From IMG/VR virus record IMGVR_UViG_3300025000_000243, positions 1-38,063 of that record: a DNA stretch of 38,063 nt. One strand, given 5' to 3'. Positions 3,282 to 34,450 of this stretch are shown here, one piece after another. The position numbers were made by a program, and so were the translations under genes. Source of the stretch: a virus. A model generated the notes under the pieces. It saw only the letters and a program-made list of their open reading frames with translations, had not been told where the DNA came from and made no database searches. The first letter of the stretch is position 1, and every line of letters starts with the position of its first letter.

Positions 3282-3551
3282 ATGTGCTGCTTCCCCTCTT
3301 GCGAACATAAAGACATATACGCCCGCGGTATCTGTTGGTATCACTACAAACTTTTTATGAAACTTGTGGGGATGAAGATACGCACTTGGGAAGAATTAGA
3401 GGAAGTGGGGTATTGCCTACCTAAACTTTACGGTAAAGGAATCCCGAAAAAAAAGAAGGACTATATACAGCCTCTACAGCATAAATATGCTCACCTCTTA
3501 GATGAAAAGATGAACGAAGGAAGAAATTATAAGCAATATCAACGTAACTAA
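3282..3551 (+). CDS. small zinc-finger protein
   Basis: 89 residues. The N-terminus MCCFPSCEHKDIYARGICWYHY has the C-x(4)-C-x(n)-A-R-G-x-C-x-x-H-Y pattern of short phage zinc modules often found near HNH-type or DNA-binding domains. The remainder is basic and Lys-rich (KGIPKKKKDYIQ). No catalytic histidine pair is present, so nuclease activity is not claimed. Confidence 0.6.
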   Translation: MCCFPSCEHKDIYARGICWYHYKLFMKLVGMKIRTWEELEEVGYCLPKLYGKGIPKKKKDYIQPLQHKYAHLLDEKMNEGRNYKQYQRN

Positions 3552-3557
3552 GTAACT

Positions 3558-3827
3558 ATGAAAATAATTGCAACAAGTTCAACAGGTAGTGGCTTCCTAC
3601 CTATGAAACAAAACAAAGAGCTAGAAGATAAAAAAAGCGAAAGGCAAAAACGAGTAGAGTTGTGTAATTTTCTTAAAAATGCTTTTTGTGTAGACGGTCT
3701 TGTTTCCTTAACAGATGGCATAATAGAAGTAGATGTATTAGGAGACAAAAAAACAACGGGCGCAGTATTTGTTGCAGAAGATAAAACCAGGGGAAAGTTC
3801 TTTGTTAGTTTCGGTAAAATAGACTAA
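3558..3827 (+). CDS. hypothetical protein, last gene of early plus operon
   Basis: 89 residues, basic N-terminus with the run KELEDKKSERQKR, then beta-rich C-terminus (GIIEVDVLGDKKTTGAVFVA). It is followed by 31 bases and then the promoter of the structured RNA. No family recognised. Confidence 0.55.
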   Translation: MKIIATSSTGSGFLPMKQNKELEDKKSERQKRVELCNFLKNAFCVDGLVSLTDGIIEVDVLGDKKTTGAVFVAEDKTRGKFFVSFGKID

Positions 3828-3858
3828 CAAATAACCCCTCGCACTCAGTAAATAGTGG

Positions 3859-3867
3859 TGGTATAAT
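3859..3867 (+). promoter_or_regulatory. extended -10 promoter for structured RNA
   Basis: TGG followed by a perfect TATAAT at 3862-3867. There is no convincing -35 box (TCGCAC at the expected position), consistent with an extended -10 promoter. The predicted transcription start, about 3873-3875, lies in GGGG. Confidence 0.55.
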
Positions 3868-3873
3868 CTAGGG

Positions 3874-4332
3874 GTAGATGATGGTAGGTGCCAGGCGAGG
3901 CTGGCTAAGTGAGGCAAACATTGCGTGATGCTAGCCTATCATCAAGTGGTGTGTTGCCACGGGTACTTGCATGGGATTAGGAGTAAGCGCCTAATTGAGA
4001 AATGGGTTAGAGTCCCTAAGTCATTAAGTTCCGGTGGGAGCACATCACACATCGTTGGTTGTTTTTTAGGAGTTAGTAGAAGAGCTGTACAAGCTTACAT
4101 CTCTACGAGGGTCGCTCCCTAGACGAAGGACTCATGGTCTTCACTCCTAAGCACCAGCCCGCGATTATGTCGTTAGCTGAACCGCCACGGGCACAGAGCA
4201 CTGTTAGCTGTCCTAAGCAACAGGTAGGCTCATACCCTATTCAGAGGACTCTTGTGGTCGGGGGCGGTTCAGCTAGTGACGCTTATATATAAATAGTTTA
4301 GCCCCCACCAGAAATGGTGGGGGCTTTTCTTT
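3874..4332 (+). ncRNA. candidate large structured noncoding RNA (about 455 nt)
   Basis: A stretch without a convincing gene, bounded by an extended -10 promoter and a strong intrinsic terminator, and visibly richer in G+C than its surroundings. Helices found by eye: TGATGGTAGG near 3880 with CCTATCATCA near 3935; hairpin GCCAG/CTGGC near 3890; TTAGGAGT (about 4065) with ACTCCTAA (4143-4150), enclosing small hairpins; and an 18-bp helix joining 4169-4186 (GTCGTTAGCTGAACCGCC) to 4263-4280 with only two wobble pairs. The segment TCCTAAGCA occurs twice. Size, multi-branched folding and phage setting recall large ornate RNAs such as GOLLD and ROOL, but I cannot assign it to a known class. It lacks tmRNA and RNase P hallmarks. 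Confidence 0.7.
4301..4332 (+). terminator. intrinsic terminator of structured RNA
   Basis: Perfect 10-bp stem GCCCCCACCA / TGGTGGGGGC with a GAAA loop (4301-4324) followed by TTTTCTTT. It sits between convergent transcripts; on the minus strand the hairpin has no U-run, so it works best for the plus-strand RNA. Confidence 0.85.
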
Positions 4333-4405
4333 ACGTCGTGTAACGTGGGTTGACGTACAGGACGGTTTCTTGTTTGTCTTCGGTGACTTTGACCACATGA
4401 GTGAT

Positions 4406-4624
4406 TTACTTGAGGTCAGCGGTGTAAATCACCAAGTAGATGATTTCCGCTGATTGGTTGTAGGAGATTTGGCAGGGTGCTTCGATGTTGCGCCAGGCAC
4501 AACCACCTTGGAACACGACCGGGTTGGCCGTGACCTCAGCTTTCACATCAGCTGGGACTGCCCAGGCTTTGACCACTATAAAGATAATGACCAAGACCAA
4601 GGCGACTTTGAGGTAGAACTTCAT
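4406..4624 (-). CDS. small secreted or membrane-anchored protein, apparently truncated by a nonsense codon
   Basis: 72 residues beginning with a signal-peptide-like segment (KFYLKVALVLVIIFIVVKAW, residues 2-21), then a beta-rich domain with two cysteines (GGCAW and APCQIS). The start has an SD (AGGAG, 8 bases before ATG), as do the other three genes of this cassette. The TAA stop at 4406-4408 is followed in the same frame by 24 more codons without a stop, to TAA at 4331-4333. These read like a normal continuation (THVVKVTEDKQETVLYVNPR). A single CAA-to-TAA change would explain this. Intact short protein, pseudogene or readthrough are all possible. Confidence 0.6.
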   Translation of the reverse strand: MKFYLKVALVLVIIFIVVKAWAVPADVKAEVTANPVVFQGGCAWRNIEAPCQISYNQSAEIIYLVIYTADLK

Positions 4625-4634
4625 GATGACTCTC

Positions 4635-4829
4635 CTAGATGTCTGCTTCCATAAGGGCTTCTACGTACCGGAGCACGTATGGAGGAACGATAGCGTGCAG
4701 CTTGAACTGGCACACGTCGTTAAAGGTGTTCACATCAACACCAAAGCAGTAGATGTGCGCCAAGCGAAAGAAGTCGCCTTCATCCGTCTTGGTACGCGTC
4801 ATCATGTCAAGCACATCACGCGTTTGCAT
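4635..4829 (-). CDS. small hypothetical protein of SD-bearing cassette
   Basis: 64 residues starting MQTRDVLDMMTRTKTDEGDF. The start is fixed by GAGGAG seven bases upstream; a longer frame exists but would overlap the neighbouring gene by over 150 bases. It overlaps the end of the upstream gene by 14 bases, implying coupling. No domain recognised. Confidence 0.65.
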   Translation of the reverse strand: MQTRDVLDMMTRTKTDEGDFFRLAHIYCFGVDVNTFNDVCQFKLHAIVPPYVLRYVEALMEADI

Positions 4830-5010
4830 TGTATTTCTCCTCACACTTAGTTGAACACACCCACACTTCTTGGTCGCCACGCATGTGCCGGCCATAGGCT
4901 CCGGAGAGCAGCTTGCTGCATACACAACAAGGTTGTTGAAGTACCCAGTCTGCCAGGTCTTTTTCTTTCTTGGCCGCCTGGACTTCATGTAGCTTAAAGC
5001 TATTTTTCAT
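4816..5010 (-). CDS. small zinc-finger protein of SD-bearing cassette
   Basis: 64 residues. A C-x-x-C knuckle in QQPCCVCSK (about residue 30) and a second in WVCSTKCEEK form a likely treble-clef or ribbon zinc site of the kind seen in MYM/FCS-like fingers. The ATG at 5010 is preceded by GGAGG five bases away, better than an upstream GTG without SD. TGATG overlap with the preceding gene implies coupled translation. Confidence 0.65.
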   Translation of the reverse strand: MKNSFKLHEVQAAKKEKDLADWVLQQPCCVCSKLLSGAYGRHMRGDQEVWVCSTKCEEKYNANA

Positions 5011-5198
5011 CACTTCCTCCCGAGTTGGAGTGGTTCCGCCTTTTGGGGTGGACACACGAGGTGAGCAAACAGGGTTAAACCCTTCAGCTGCCCGATAATG
5101 TGTGGGTGGACGTTACAGTTGAACATCCGACCACACGATATGCAAAGCCTCCATTCAGTTAGGAAGCGTGCATCACCGTCTTTGACGTAGGTGTACAT
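5010..5198 (-). CDS. small Cys/His protein, first gene of SD-bearing cassette
   Basis: 62 residues, MYTYVKDGDARFLTEWRLCI and onward. It contains C-I-S-C-G-R-M-F-N-C-N-V-H-P-H, a compact metal-binding motif near residues 19-33. The SD AAGGAG lies seven bases before the ATG. It is preceded by a structured leader of about 75 bases and a TATAAT box. Confidence 0.65.
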   Translation of the reverse strand: MYTYVKDGDARFLTEWRLCISCGRMFNCNVHPHIIGQLKGLTLFAHLVCPPQKAEPLQLGRK

Positions 5199-5223
5199 GA
5201 TTCGCTCCTTTGTTAATGAACTA

Positions 5224-5287
5224 TGGCGAGCGGTGGCTTGTTCTCAAAGCCTCAGCGTTTAGGCGTCCGCTCCTATCTATTATTATA
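5224..5287 (-). promoter_or_regulatory. promoter and folded leader of minus-strand cassette
   Basis: TATAAT on the minus strand at 5282-5287 (no good -35). The leader can fold: GAGCGG (5267-5272 on minus) pairs with CCGCTC (5228-5233), enclosing a GGCTT/AAGCC hairpin with a 7-base loop and a GCCT/AGGC pair. This leader is much longer than usual for this genome and could be a cis-regulatory RNA. Confidence 0.45.
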
Positions 5288-6184: not shown

Positions 6185-6478
6185 ATGAAGCAGTTGATTA
6201 AGACTCTTGCTGTAATTGTTATAGCAGTAGGAGTCATGTTTATTATCGTAAATATCCCCCAGGATATGACAGTAGTAAACGAACGTTTGGATATTGAAAC
6301 TTTGGAGGTGGAGACACCAATCGAGGAAGTAGAACAAGACGTAATAGAAAAAGCGCGACAAGAGTTGGAACGTATCAAAAGAACACTAGACACCAAAGAG
6401 CAGGAGTTGCTAGAGCAGCGAAACTCTATTGATGCAGAACTTGAGAAATTACGAACCACACGCACGTCTTTTCAATAA
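6185..6478 (+). CDS. membrane-anchored coiled coil, probable N-terminal half of frameshifted lysozyme
   Basis: 97 residues. The N-terminus (MKQLIKTLAVIVIAVGVMFI) is a single transmembrane or signal-anchor segment. From about residue 40 it is an acidic coiled coil ending ELEKLRTTRTSFQ. Just before its stop there is a TTTT run, and a -1 shift at the TTT codon (6470-6472) leads without a stop into the lysozyme domain that follows. The upstream gap (6139-6184) shows no clear promoter or SD. Such an anchored enzyme could be a signal-anchor endolysin or an entry factor; that is inference. Confidence 0.65.
   Translation: MKQLIKTLAVIVIAVGVMFIIVNIPQDMTVVNERLDIETLEVETPIEEVEQDVIEKARQELERIKRTLDTKEQELLEQRNSIDAELEKLRTTRTSFQ
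6466..6478 (+). other. candidate -1 frameshift site
   Basis: GTCTTTTCAATAA: the TTT codon can slip one base back onto TTT, after which reading continues through SISPRAKRIAAAIVTVETGG into the lysozyme. It is a single-tRNA slippage site rather than a canonical X-XXY-YYZ heptamer. A real mutation or a sequence error would look identical. Confidence 0.4.
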
Positions 6479-6510
6479 GCCCTAGAGCCAAGAGAATTGC
6501 AGCCGCTATC

Positions 6511-6828
6511 GTGACAGTAGAGACAGGTGGTAATTGCAACGCTCGTGGGGCAAGTGGAGAAGGAGGATGCTTTCAGTTTATGCCTGGCACCTGGAGCTAT
6601 TGGTCACAAAAAGTCTTTGGTTACGTAGAGAGGCAGACACCAGCCAATGAAGAGTACGTAGCACTTCATAAGATTCAAGCCCATCTTAATGAAGGGTACG
6701 GAGAAAAAGAAATAGCTTTAATTTGGAACCAGGGGAACGCATCTCCTTGCAAAGCGGGGACAAATAGCTACGGAGTCGTTTATGACTCTTGCAGCTATGT
6801 ACAAAAGGTATTAGTCGCGATGAGGTAA
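6511..6828 (+). CDS. lysozyme/transglycosylase-like (SLT) domain
   Basis: 105 residues if started at GTG 6511. The core pattern is typical of SLT/goose-type lysozyme folds: catalytic Glu in VTVETGGN, the G-A-S-G-E-G-G-C-F-Q-F-M-P-G-T-W segment, then ALIWNQGNAS and a C-terminal YDSCSYVQKVL helix. The GTG start would cut the helix carrying the catalytic Glu. The same frame is open upstream to 6469 and supplies the missing helix (RAKRIAAAIV), arguing that the domain is made as a frameshift product of the preceding gene. Probably cleaves peptidoglycan at entry or lysis. Confidence 0.75.
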   Translation: MTVETGGNCNARGASGEGGCFQFMPGTWSYWSQKVFGYVERQTPANEEYVALHKIQAHLNEGYGEKEIALIWNQGNASPCKAGTNSYGVVYDSCSYVQKVLVAMR

Positions 6829-6833
6829 TCCAC

Positions 6834-6864
6834 AACCCCCACTTGTAATAGGTGGGGGTTTTGG
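6834..6864 (+). terminator. hairpin terminator
   Basis: AACCCCCAC / GTGGGGGTT (9 bp) right after the lysozyme stop, followed only by TTGGTATT, so the U-run is weak. Probably a partial terminator. Confidence 0.55.
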
Positions 6865-6896
6865 TATTGTGGGTAAGTTACTAGTTAAAAAGCAAT

Positions 6897-6995
6897 ATGA
6901 TTACCGTAATTGGAACTATCCTTGCTATCCTGTTCGTTACTTACGTTTTAAGTGTAGTATATGATTTGGGTAAAAATAGTAAGAAAAAGAAATGA
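6897..6995 (+). CDS. micro membrane protein
   Basis: 32 residues: one hydrophobic helix (VIGTILAILFVTYVLSVVY) and a C-terminal Lys-rich tail (GKNSKKKK), i.e. N-out/C-in topology by the positive-inside rule. Its stop overlaps the next start (ATGA), so the two are translationally coupled. Possibly a partner of the SPFH protein or a lysis accessory. Confidence 0.5.
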   Translation: MITVIGTILAILFVTYVLSVVYDLGKNSKKKK

Positions 6996-7093
6996 AAACT
7001 TTCCATAATTTCTGCGCCATTTTTGGGGCTTTTATATTGGGAGTAATTTTAGCGAGTGTTATTAAACATAATTATTTACTATGGGTAAACTAA
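6992..7093 (+). CDS. micro membrane protein
   Basis: 33 residues with one hydrophobic helix (FCAIFGAFILGVILASVI). It overlaps the upstream micro-gene by 4 bases and the SPFH gene by 13 bases, so all three are made from one message. Function unknown. Confidence 0.5.
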   Translation: MKTFHNFCAIFGAFILGVILASVIKHNYLLWVN

Positions 7094-7881
7094 TAGGAGG
7101 TGGAGTAATGTTGTTTGTTGGCTTGATTATTATTATGATGTCAGCAACAATTATTGAACAGACGGAGCGAGGAGTGTTAACGAGATTTGGAGTAATCCAA
7201 GATGTTTTGGAGCCAGGGTTTCATTTAGTAAATCCATTTACACAAAATGTATACAAAATTGACGTGTCGGTACAAGCCCTTGCTGTCGATGAGCTTGTCT
7301 ACTCAAAAGACTCCCAAATTGTAGCTGTTCAAGCTACTGTAAATTATCAAATAGATGCGTCTCGAGTTCGAGAGCTATTTGAAGAGGTGCGTCGAGAAGC
7401 TGAAATTCGTTACGTAATCCCGCGTAGTAAAGACGCATTAAAAGAGGTTATTTCAGCATACACAGCACAAGGTATTATTGAAAATCGTGGACAATTAACT
7501 ATTGAAATCAAAAACCGCGTAGCTGAAAGACTTAGTGTAGACGGTATCTTAGTACAGGATGTAAGTGTTACTAACTTTGATTTTGACGACCTGTATGAGT
7601 CGGCTGTTCAAGCAAAACAAGTTGAAGAGCAAAGAGCACTTGGTCAAGTAAACGTCACAAAGCAAGAAGAAGAAAAAAAGAAACAAGAGATTCTTCGAGC
7701 AGAGGCCCTAGCAGAGAAAACACGTCTTGAAGTAGAAGCATTGTCAACTTCACAAGGTGGTCAGATTATTGAAAAGATTAGAGCTGAGGCAGAATTAGAG
7801 GCGGCTCGAAGGTGGAATGGTCAACTGCCTACAAACTTGTATGGTTCAGCACCGCTCCCTATTCTAAACGTAGGTAACTAA
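7081..7881 (+). CDS. SPFH/band-7 (prohibitin/stomatin-like) membrane protein
   Basis: 266 residues. An N-terminal membrane segment (residues 4-25) is followed by the band-7 signature: IIEQTERGVLTRFGVIQDVL, EPGFHLVNPF, then VDVSVQALAV-like strands, the Q-A-T-V-N-Y-Q-I core and a long Glu/Lys/Gln coiled coil (about 185-245). Cellular relatives form membrane rings and regulate proteases (FtsH/HflKC, prohibitins). In a phage this may shield the membrane, modulate FtsH or give superinfection exclusion; this is inference. The gene ends just before a terminator. Confidence 0.9.
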   Translation: MGKLIGGGVMLFVGLIIIMMSATIIEQTERGVLTRFGVIQDVLEPGFHLVNPFTQNVYKIDVSVQALAVDELVYSKDSQIVAVQATVNYQIDASRVRELFEEVRREAEIRYVIPRSKDALKEVISAYTAQGIIENRGQLTIEIKNRVAERLSVDGILVQDVSVTNFDFDDLYESAVQAKQVEEQRALGQVNVTKQEEEKKKQEILRAEALAEKTRLEVEALSTSQGGQIIEKIRAEAELEAARRWNGQLPTNLYGSAPLPILNVGN

Positions 7882-7899
7882 ATAAAGAGACAGAAAAAG

Positions 7900-7925
7900 A
7901 GCCACCTAAATAGGGTGGCTTTTAT
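7900..7925. terminator. bidirectional terminator
   Basis: AGCCACC / GGTGGCT stem with a 7-base loop. A TTTTAT run follows on the plus strand and, on the minus strand, CTTTTTC. It ends the SPFH operon on one side and the 8113-7922 gene on the other. Confidence 0.8.
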
Positions 7926-8113
7926 AGTTCGTCTTTGTCATTAAAATCATTGTCCTCAACACACTCATCGGCTCCCTCCTCTGGTTCTATCTCCTCCTCG
8001 TCATAATCCGAAGTCAACAACACCTTCTGTCGTCTCGCGAACATATCCTCATACCATTGCTCTGCTTCTGGGCTGCTACTCATGCCGTTTGTATTATATT
8101 GATAATCTTCCAT
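7922..8113 (-). CDS. small acidic hypothetical protein
   Basis: 63 residues, strongly acidic C-terminus (DYDEEEIEPEEGADECVEDN). A TATGAT box 12 bases before the ATG suggests its own promoter with a very short leader. DNA-mimic or inhibitor roles are typical of such acidic phage proteins, but there is no direct evidence. Ends at the bidirectional terminator. Confidence 0.5.
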   Translation of the reverse strand: MEDYQYNTNGMSSSPEAEQWYEDMFARRQKVLLTSDYDEEEIEPEEGADECVEDNDFNDKDEL

Positions 8114-8126
8114 GACTATAATTCTA

Positions 8127-11705: not shown

Positions 11706-12797
11706 TTACAGGAAGCCTAAATTTATAATGACCTCATCTGCTCCAGGTGCGCCCGTATCATTATCTGCTAATCCTGTGGTGGCAGCTACTGTGATAGCAG
11801 TTGAGAATTGCTGTCCAGCGTCTCCGAAACTAATAACAAAGCCAGCACCATTCGTCGAGGCGAATGTAGGAATTGGAAAAGTGTGGTCTGGGACAGTTGT
11901 TCCCACAGTCACAGAGGCAGCAGTTGCGTTATAGAGTTTTAAGTATCGGACAGAGGCGCTCATGTTCATGACGTGAATCCAACCAAGTTTTCCAGCAGTT
12001 GCTTTGATTTGGTCTTCTGATTCATCAACGTCGATGTTTTTATATGGAGTCCAGCCACCAGCAGCAGCGTGAACGTAAGGGGTTACTACCTGCTTACGGT
12101 CGAGTGTCATGCGGGCAATACCAGCGTCTCCTTCGTCTACGGAGTCAGTGGCAGTTTCGTCAGCGAGAAAACCAATAGGGAGAATACGTCCTGTTGCTGG
12201 TGTAAAGGCAGCGTCATCTACTTGCGATGCGGTGTCGCGTGTCCAAAGAGCACCAACTGAGTCGGTATTTAGTGTGGCGTTATCGCCTGTAGTTCCAGCA
12301 GAGGAGGCTGCGGTGTCTCGACGAACAGTTCCAACTGCCATAAGGTTGCCTCCTGCGGTTTCGGCGGCATCTTCTACTACAATTCCAGGCATAGAAAGTA
12401 CATCAACGTCTCCGATGTTGTTTGTACCCGCTGGGAGAGGTGCGACGACATCAACTTGCATTTCTGTACCTGAGATAGCGTTGTCGATTGTTTCAACCGC
12501 CGTTTGGATAGCGGCATTAGAGGCTTCTAGCCCATCAACAGCCGCAAGGATTGCTCCTGTATCAGCGTCAATAGTTCCTAAGAGTGTCTCTACTCCATCA
12601 ACACTGGCAGCGATAGCATCAAGCACAGCGTTATCAGTCGCTGAAAGTTCTGCGGTAACTACGTCTGTGTTTACTAGAGGACGAATGTCTAGGTCAGTGG
12701 CTGAAACTGGGATTGCTGTTTGGTCGGACGCAAGTACCACTGGCTCACTATTTGCCATTGTTGCTTGTCCGAGATTTGGGCGTTTATTGTATGACAT
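11706..12797 (-). CDS. virion tail protein (fiber-like)
   Basis: 363 residues. The N-terminus (NSEPVVLASDQTAIPV, about 17-32) is a widespread start of phage virion proteins. A coiled coil with D-G-V-E-T-L-L-G-T-I-D-A-D-T repeats follows, then a C-terminal beta domain (GGWTPYKNIDVDESEDQIKA, later RYLKLYNATAASVTVGTTVP) known from many phage tail and capsid-decorating proteins. Exact location in the particle is not known. The start overlaps the HNH gene by 14 bases. Confidence 0.75.
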   Translation of the reverse strand: MSYNKRPNLGQATMANSEPVVLASDQTAIPVSATDLDIRPLVNTDVVTAELSATDNAVLDAIAASVDGVETLLGTIDADTGAILAAVDGLEASNAAIQTAVETIDNAISGTEMQVDVVAPLPAGTNNIGDVDVLSMPGIVVEDAAETAGGNLMAVGTVRRDTAASSAGTTGDNATLNTDSVGALWTRDTASQVDDAAFTPATGRILPIGFLADETATDSVDEGDAGIARMTLDRKQVVTPYVHAAAGGWTPYKNIDVDESEDQIKATAGKLGWIHVMNMSASVRYLKLYNATAASVTVGTTVPDHTFPIPTFASTNGAGFVISFGDAGQQFSTAITVAATTGLADNDTGAPGADEVIINLGFL

Positions 12798-29917: not shown

Positions 29918-30002
29918 CAAGGAAGGATTCGAACTTTCCAGCTCCCTAGAGTATAAGCAATATAAAGTTTGGGAGTTCCTGCGCGGGTGAGTGCGCTTGG
30001 TG
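29915..30002 (-). tRNA. tRNA-like element with oversized anticodon-arm loop
   Basis: On the minus strand, 88 nt. The ends form a perfect 7-bp acceptor stem (CACCAAG / CTTGGTG). A T-arm GAAAG-TTCGAAT-CCTTC has the canonical loop and one mismatch, and a D-arm-like GCGC/GCGC hairpin is present. The middle stem CTCCC/GGGAG closes a 24-base loop instead of 7, so no anticodon can be assigned; removal of 17 bases would leave a normal loop. No 3' CCA is encoded. Its own promoter (TTGAAT-16-TATAAT) starts about 20 bases upstream. It may be a degenerate tRNA, an intron-bearing tRNA, or a tRNA mimic. Confidence 0.45.
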
Positions 30003-30029
30003 GGTGCTAGGGTCGATACTAGCTTTACT

Positions 30030-33838: not shown

Positions 33839-33874
33839 CTTATTTGGTACTAAAAAATCCGCAATGTTGAGGGC

Positions 33875-33919
33875 GGGAGTAAAGACAGGCTCTCTCAACC
33901 TGTTGGGGAATTTACTCCC
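33875..33919 (-). promoter_or_regulatory. two-part hairpin in leader of initiator gene
   Basis: On the minus strand GGGAGTAAA (33911-33919 as transcribed) pairs perfectly with TTTACTCCC (33875-33883), enclosing ACAGG / CCTGT with a 9-base loop. It is in the leader of about 160 bases, 37 bases before the initiator ATG. No U-run follows. Confidence 0.5.
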
Positions 33920-33997
33920 CTCCCTCCCTCAACGCTACGGACTTATTTTTATTGAGAGAGAATTGATAACATAATAGGTTTAACTTTACAACCCTAC

Positions 33998-34015
33998 TAC
34001 CCTATTATTATATCA
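33998..34015 (-). promoter_or_regulatory. promoter of initiator operon with iteron at the start site
   Basis: Minus-strand TGA-TATAAT (box 34007-34012) with a TACCCTAT copy (33998-34005) just downstream, at the expected start site. Initiator binding there would block transcription, i.e. autoregulation. A second weaker box (TTGTAA-17-TATCAA) lies downstream. The remaining stretch to 34105 holds repeated TCTTCAC (two copies, 11 bases apart) and no gene. Confidence 0.5.
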
Positions 34016-34105
34016 CCTCTTCACAATTTCTTCACGTCAAAACCTCTCAGTCACCTGTTAATAACTCAGCCGTCCTAAGTCTATAAATGTGACAGACTTC
34101 TATAC

Positions 34106-34434
34106 CCGTTGCTGGGGTCGGTGTTATTAAGCTACGTGTTGTCCCTCTACTCCTCTTTTAACTCGGTCTTTGGTTCGTTCCTCAAGCCACATAAGAGCCT
34201 CTTGCATTTTAGTAATAGCTACCGAATTTTCACGGCAACCAAAACGAGAGTTTAGGTCTTGCAGTCTAGCGATAGAAACAGACAGCATTTCTTCTAGAGT
34301 TGTTCCGCTAATCTCACTACCGTCTTCGTTTTTTTCATAGAAAACCACTTCTTGTAAAGCTCCAGTGGGTTGAAACGGTTGCAGTTGGTAAGTGTTCATA
34401 TTTTATTATTCTGATTACTTAACCCCAGCAACGG
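34106..34434. repeat. 13-bp inverted repeat bracketing the Acb2/Tad1-like gene
   Basis: CCGTTGCTGGGGT at 34106-34118 and its exact complement ACCCCAGCAACGG at 34422-34434, flanking the gene. In its transcript the leader and the trailer could pair. Alternatively they are protein binding sites or borders of a movable segment. Confidence 0.75.
34127..34399 (-). CDS. candidate Acb2/Tad1-type cyclic-nucleotide sponge
   Basis: 90 residues. A short beta/linker N-terminus is followed by LEEMLSVSIARLQDLNSRFG and CRENSVAITKMQEALMWLEE-R-T-K-D-R-x-x-R-G-V-E-G (residues 35-86). The pattern of L-N-x-R-F/P, C-R-E-x-x-x-A-I-T-K-x-x-E-A-L-x-W-L and R-T-x-D-R is that of the phage helical-hairpin proteins grouped with Acb2 and Tad1, which sequester cyclic nucleotides of CBASS and Thoeris. 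It is a single gene with its own promoter and a 13-bp inverted repeat at both ends. Anti-defence function is inferred from family resemblance. Confidence 0.65.
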   Translation of the reverse strand: MNTYQLQPFQPTGALQEVVFYEKNEDGSEISGTTLEEMLSVSIARLQDLNSRFGCRENSVAITKMQEALMWLEERTKDRVKRGVEGQHVA

Positions 34435-34450
34435 AGATATAAGTGTTGTT

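Follow-up and report, generated by a model that had tools for sequence, protein, structure and literature searches.

A predicted large structured noncoding RNA at an operon end in an IMG/VR phage

The point at which convergent operons meet in the virus record IMGVR_UViG_3300025000_000243 (38,063 nt, all of which was analysed and is called the window here) holds an interval, 3874-4331, that raises the question of whether it encodes an RNA acting as such, a short message, or nothing of use to the phage. To our knowledge, phages have so far yielded very few large structured RNAs, and what these do is not known. On single-sequence evidence, the region probably encodes a standalone, large, structured phage noncoding RNA. 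The computed support consists of an excess of folding over shuffled sequence, an asymmetry between the strands, the kinship of the promoter with others of the phage, the lack of a coding signal, and the absence of the RNA from the corresponding locus of the nearest relative.

Gene content and borders of the interval

The interval is flanked on its 5' side by a small plus-strand ORF ending at 3827, and three minus-strand ORFs converge on it from the other side, the nearest of which ends at 4406. The only ORF of at least 60 aa within it has a GTG start and a length of 65 aa (3925-4122); its codon score of -0.29 bits/codon lies below that of every phage ORF scored (leave-one-out scores: minimum -0.18, median +0.21 bits/codon). 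The initial annotation, which described some 455 nt without a convincing gene, is borne out by these values. The GC content is 50% in the RNA region as against 41.6% in the whole window. As the plus strand carries no gene between the RNA and the terminator, the RNA is not an obvious riboswitch.

An extended -10 promoter belonging to the interval had also been proposed, and the element TGGTATAAT is indeed present at 3859-3867 as part of a signature of this phage. The window has 10 copies of the motif TGNTATAAT where 1.8 are expected, a number that none of 100 shuffles attains, and 8 copies of GTGNTATAAT (0.42 expected). The other nine TGNTATAAT sites all lie on the minus strand, each with an ORF start 6-108 nt downstream, which leaves the RNA promoter as the sole plus-strand member of the set in the window; the remaining exact copies of GTGGTATAAT stand before phage ORFs as well. 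Because an ATG lies 6-11 nt past the -10 box at five of these nine sites, and because most genes of the window lack a Shine-Dalgarno sequence, leaderless translation is likely in this phage.

The terminator, which had been presented as a very strong one belonging to the RNA, is real (the sole terminator-like site within 3500-4500, with a perfect stem) but does not belong to the RNA alone. The nearest relative, IMGVR_UViG_3300002460_000082 (L024), is 98% identical to the window over 6295-8122 and 71% identical over 4297-5228, a stretch that begins with the terminator. It lacks the RNA and carries ORFs in its place, yet keeps the terminator stem, which there closes a protein-coding operon, and the genes downstream. 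The terminator is thus an operon end, and the RNA a module present in one of the two phages and missing from the other. In comparing the two stems (window 4300-4325, L024:7777-7802), the hairpin loop region was seen to be inverted (CACCAGAAATGGTG versus CACCATTTCTGG), as from hairpin flipping. A separate observation concerns a plus-strand gene of the window (7081-7881) for an SPFH/Band_7 (HflK-like) membrane protein that is 100% identical in the nearest relative; among the matches listed, those ranking best in deposited phages share about 30% identity or less with it.

Table 1. Features of the predicted RNA locus, in window coordinates, and the structured region of a related phage (L014)
Feature	Coordinates	Strand	Remarks
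Extended -10 promoter GTGGTATAAT	3858-3867	+	kin to other promoters of the phage; predicted start ~3874
Predicted noncoding transcript, ~458 nt	3874-4331	+	bounded by promoter and terminator; fold z -6.97; codon statistics of non-coding type
Possible 16-aa leaderless mini-ORF MMVGARRGWLSEANIA	3878-3928	+	ATG 10 nt past TATAAT; perhaps chance
Domain 1 (predicted)	3879-3944	+	11-bp outer helix, inner part with two alternative folds; z -2.3 alone
Domain 2 (predicted)	3946-4048	+	long interrupted stem; z -5.6 alone, 0/200 shuffles
Domain 3 (predicted)	4051-4165	+	branched stem, palindrome UGUACA in one hairpin loop; z -2.9 alone
Domain 4 (predicted)	4168-4281	+	branched head closed by the 18-19-bp helix 4168-4186/4263-4281; z -5.4 alone
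Intrinsic terminator	4300-4332	+	where convergent operons meet; common to the relative phage; perfect 11-bp stem 4300-4325, then TTTTCTTT
L014 structured region	L014:515-1115	+	fold z -6.9; own TATAAT box

Predicted fold of the transcript

Folding energy well below that of shuffled sequence, as looked for in a structured noncoding RNA, was found both with the terminator (3872-4332, z -6.97) and without it (3874-4290, 417 nt, -166 kcal/mol, z -5.25), and none of 100 shuffles folded as well in either case, although these are single-sequence statistics and single-sequence folding can overstate structure. The reverse strand reaches a z of only -2.79, which favours a function for the plus-strand RNA. 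In a structure scan of the window, the RNA (4201, +) ranks second, after a site at 33841 (-).

The several nested hairpins noted from the letters correspond to four successive predicted stem domains (Table 1), which adopt the identical fold alone and within the whole RNA; domains 2 and 4 are extreme on their own, and domains 1 and 3 are modestly better than shuffles. The 18-bp long-range helix singled out in the initial annotation (4169-4186/4263-4280) withstood comparison with shuffled sequence: it comprises 18 consecutive pairs including G.U, or 19 if extended, against a longest helix of 16 (mean 11.7) among 100 shuffles, and it exceeds every other hairpin helix of the 38-kb window at spans up to ~260 nt. 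Its G.U pairs favour the plus strand. Short motifs repeated within the RNA (GCCACGGGYAC, TCCTAAGCAMCAG and TTAGGAGTWAG), together with loop complementarities, hint at long-range contacts, though six-base matches are expected by chance at this length. The UGUACA loop might serve as a site of RNA-RNA assembly, which is offered as a lead only.

Comparison with known RNA classes and search for relatives

GOLLD and ROOL had been named as the closest in style. The Infernal search that had been proposed as a check, run as Rfam cmscan at the gathering threshold over the whole window, gave no match to GOLLD, ROOL, OLE or HEARO; and at E values up to 10 over 3800-4400 the only matches were sub-threshold ones that take in the terminator. 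ARAGORN found no tRNA and no tmRNA in the window. Of the proposed likeness, the phage location, large size and multi-stem build hold, whereas the cmscan match and the called tRNA are lacking and the RNA is shorter, so that the likeness is one of style only. The broader reading as a large ornate noncoding RNA is well supported by the multi-domain fold and the promoter, both single-sequence evidence, and gives up membership of GOLLD or ROOL.

ROOL often lies near tRNA islands, a frequent but not obligatory setting. The window RNA does not share it, as ARAGORN calls no tRNA and a tRNA-like element (29926-30010) lies ~26 kb off. ROOL, a noncoding RNA whose function is not known, shares phage encoding, large size and multiple stems with the window RNA (PMC12286853); its solved example, however, measures 659 nt versus ~460 nt here, and no Rfam match links the two. 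GOLLD is likewise a large ornate RNA of phages and prophages, but many of its members exceed 800 nt (PMC12286853), as against ~458 nt from promoter to terminator, and no region resembling the conserved 3' half of its covariance model is detectable in the RNA. At ~460 nt, the window RNA thus compares with ~600 to >800 nt for ROOL and GOLLD. OLE, a bacterial RNA of ~600 nt found mostly in Bacillota (PMC12054373), is also large, ornate and standalone, but its covariance model does not match. For HEARO/omega RNA, neither a model match nor an adjacent IscB-type HNH gene was found: the nearby proteins scanned include no IscB-like effector, the HNH-family match of a nearby 89-aa protein is weak (E 3e-4), and an HNH gene at 12784, 8 kb off, covers only part of the IscB profile, under the cut-off. 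Gaps bearing tRNAs in two other genomes (G014 and G018), considered as GOLLD-like loci, were less structured and had Rfam matches to tRNAs only.

Searches for homologues covered a broad range of genomes. BLAST of the RNA against phages and plasmids returned either matches to the terminator alone or nothing, and 374 genomes from the class of the best terminase match yielded short isolated matches only; two of these genome matches shared one part of the RNA, and when read they looked unlike it and lay in probable coding DNA. Pattern scans of IMG/VR with 16-, 15- and 14-mers from the RNA, and a scan with its pseudo-translation (six wobble 24-mers), gave nothing beyond a chance match. Covariance models built from domains 4 and 2 as single sequences, run over the relatives and two sets of ~375 Patescibacteria genomes, matched the window alone, although such models are weak and their empty result is not strong evidence. 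By these searches the RNA has no relative in the phage, plasmid, IMG/VR or sampled Patescibacteria data, and it is best read as the sole example of its class so far.

Alternative readings and possible function

Base pairing with transcripts is a common mode of action for bacterial and phage small RNAs, and an antisense or regulatory RNA that pairs with transcripts of the phage or the host, and is structured for the sake of stability, would follow this usual mode. Such a reading is rather unlikely, given that complementarity to the rest of the phage reaches at most 13 nt exact (E ~0.2), which is chance level, and that the size and multi-domain fold go beyond those of the usual sRNA. It is quite unlikely that the transcript is instead a short mRNA, in which the ATG at 3878 would open a leaderless 16-aa peptide and the rest would form a long structured 3' UTR, or a transcript of dual function. 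The ATG spacing fits that at the other extended -10 sites described above, and ATGATG is present; a chance ATG in that 6-nt spread has a likelihood of ~1/10, however, the tiny ORF lies inside the domain 1 helix, and 400 nt of structure would be left unaccounted for.

Functionless filler, with a chance fold in an exchangeable region, would agree with the searches that found no homologue and with the RNA's absence from the nearest relative, but it is very unlikely in view of a z below -5 with 0/100 shuffles, the longest hairpin helix of the phage and a signature promoter. Highly improbable, finally, is a very divergent member of GOLLD, ROOL, HEARO/omega RNA, group I intron, RNase P or tmRNA: size and phage location recall GOLLD and ROOL, whereas Rfam is empty to E 10 save for the sub-threshold terminator matches, ARAGORN reports no tmRNA, and the nearby proteins scanned offer no IscB-like effector.

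If the region does encode a standalone structured RNA, transcription would start near 3874 from the phage-type extended -10 promoter, and the transcript of ~458 nt would fold into the four successive stem domains and end at the shared terminator near 4331, forming an exchangeable module placed last in a plus-strand operon of small genes. The RNA would be transcribed and stable and would act in trans via its shape, as neither a messenger nor a riboswitch, perhaps by binding a protein or the ribosome, or by self-assembly of copies like ROOL and GOLLD, which form RNA cages in vitro. Action as an RNA scaffold or RNA oligomer is put forward tentatively. At ~460 nt, the RNA would be a compact candidate for structural work.

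A scan of gaps in related phages found another ORF-free structured stretch, of ~600 nt, in L014 (IMGVR_UViG_3300017707_001199), whose terminase is 56% identical to that of the window phage and belongs to the same terminase family. This region, in which CACCAGTTCNNTTAAG occurs twice, lies between an HNH-like gene and the gene for the terminase small subunit, upstream of the latter, and was matched neither in Rfam, at threshold, nor in phages. Like the window RNA it is large, structured, ORF-free and TATAAT-bearing; unlike it, it adjoins terminase genes, and the two have no sequence similarity. Two members of one phage family would thus carry unrelated large structured RNAs, a statement that rests on two cases.

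With regard to the host, the window terminase finds its best GTDB match (45%) in a Paceibacterota MAG; next come other Patescibacteria, interspersed with many Bacteroidota, and among cultured phages those of Bacteroidota match at only 30-37%. These terminase matches and the leaderless gene style make a Patescibacteria host plausible. It is enticing to speculate, at longer odds than the scaffold mode, that the RNA represents a new large ornate class, possibly self-assembling, in a phage lineage, maybe Patescibacteria-infecting, that carries unrelated RNAs in exchangeable slots. If true, an unrelated, swappable large RNA with a phage-type promoter would widen the set of large phage RNAs and suggest that such RNAs arise or change hands repeatedly inside one phage lineage.

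Other elements of the window also drew attention. The minus-strand stretch 33860-34126, which takes in a GTGATATAAT promoter and the region of the leader of the 33137-33898 gene, is strongly structured (z -5.3), and a long hairpin at ~33860-33940 overlaps the listed start of that gene. The motif CCCCAGCAACGG lies at 34101-34118 and 34421-34437, in opposite orientations flanking the 34127-34399 gene, and the two copies are possibly operators. The tRNA-like element at 29926-30010 (-), reported by neither ARAGORN nor Rfam in the window, has a counterpart at L144:7355-7450 (+) and is unusual in combining an acceptor-like CACCAAG/CTTGGTG pairing, a T-arm-like TTCGAAT and a CTCCC/GGGAG stem with a ~24-nt loop. 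It is kept in the nearest relative with its 3' half changed, beside a normal tRNA-Met there.
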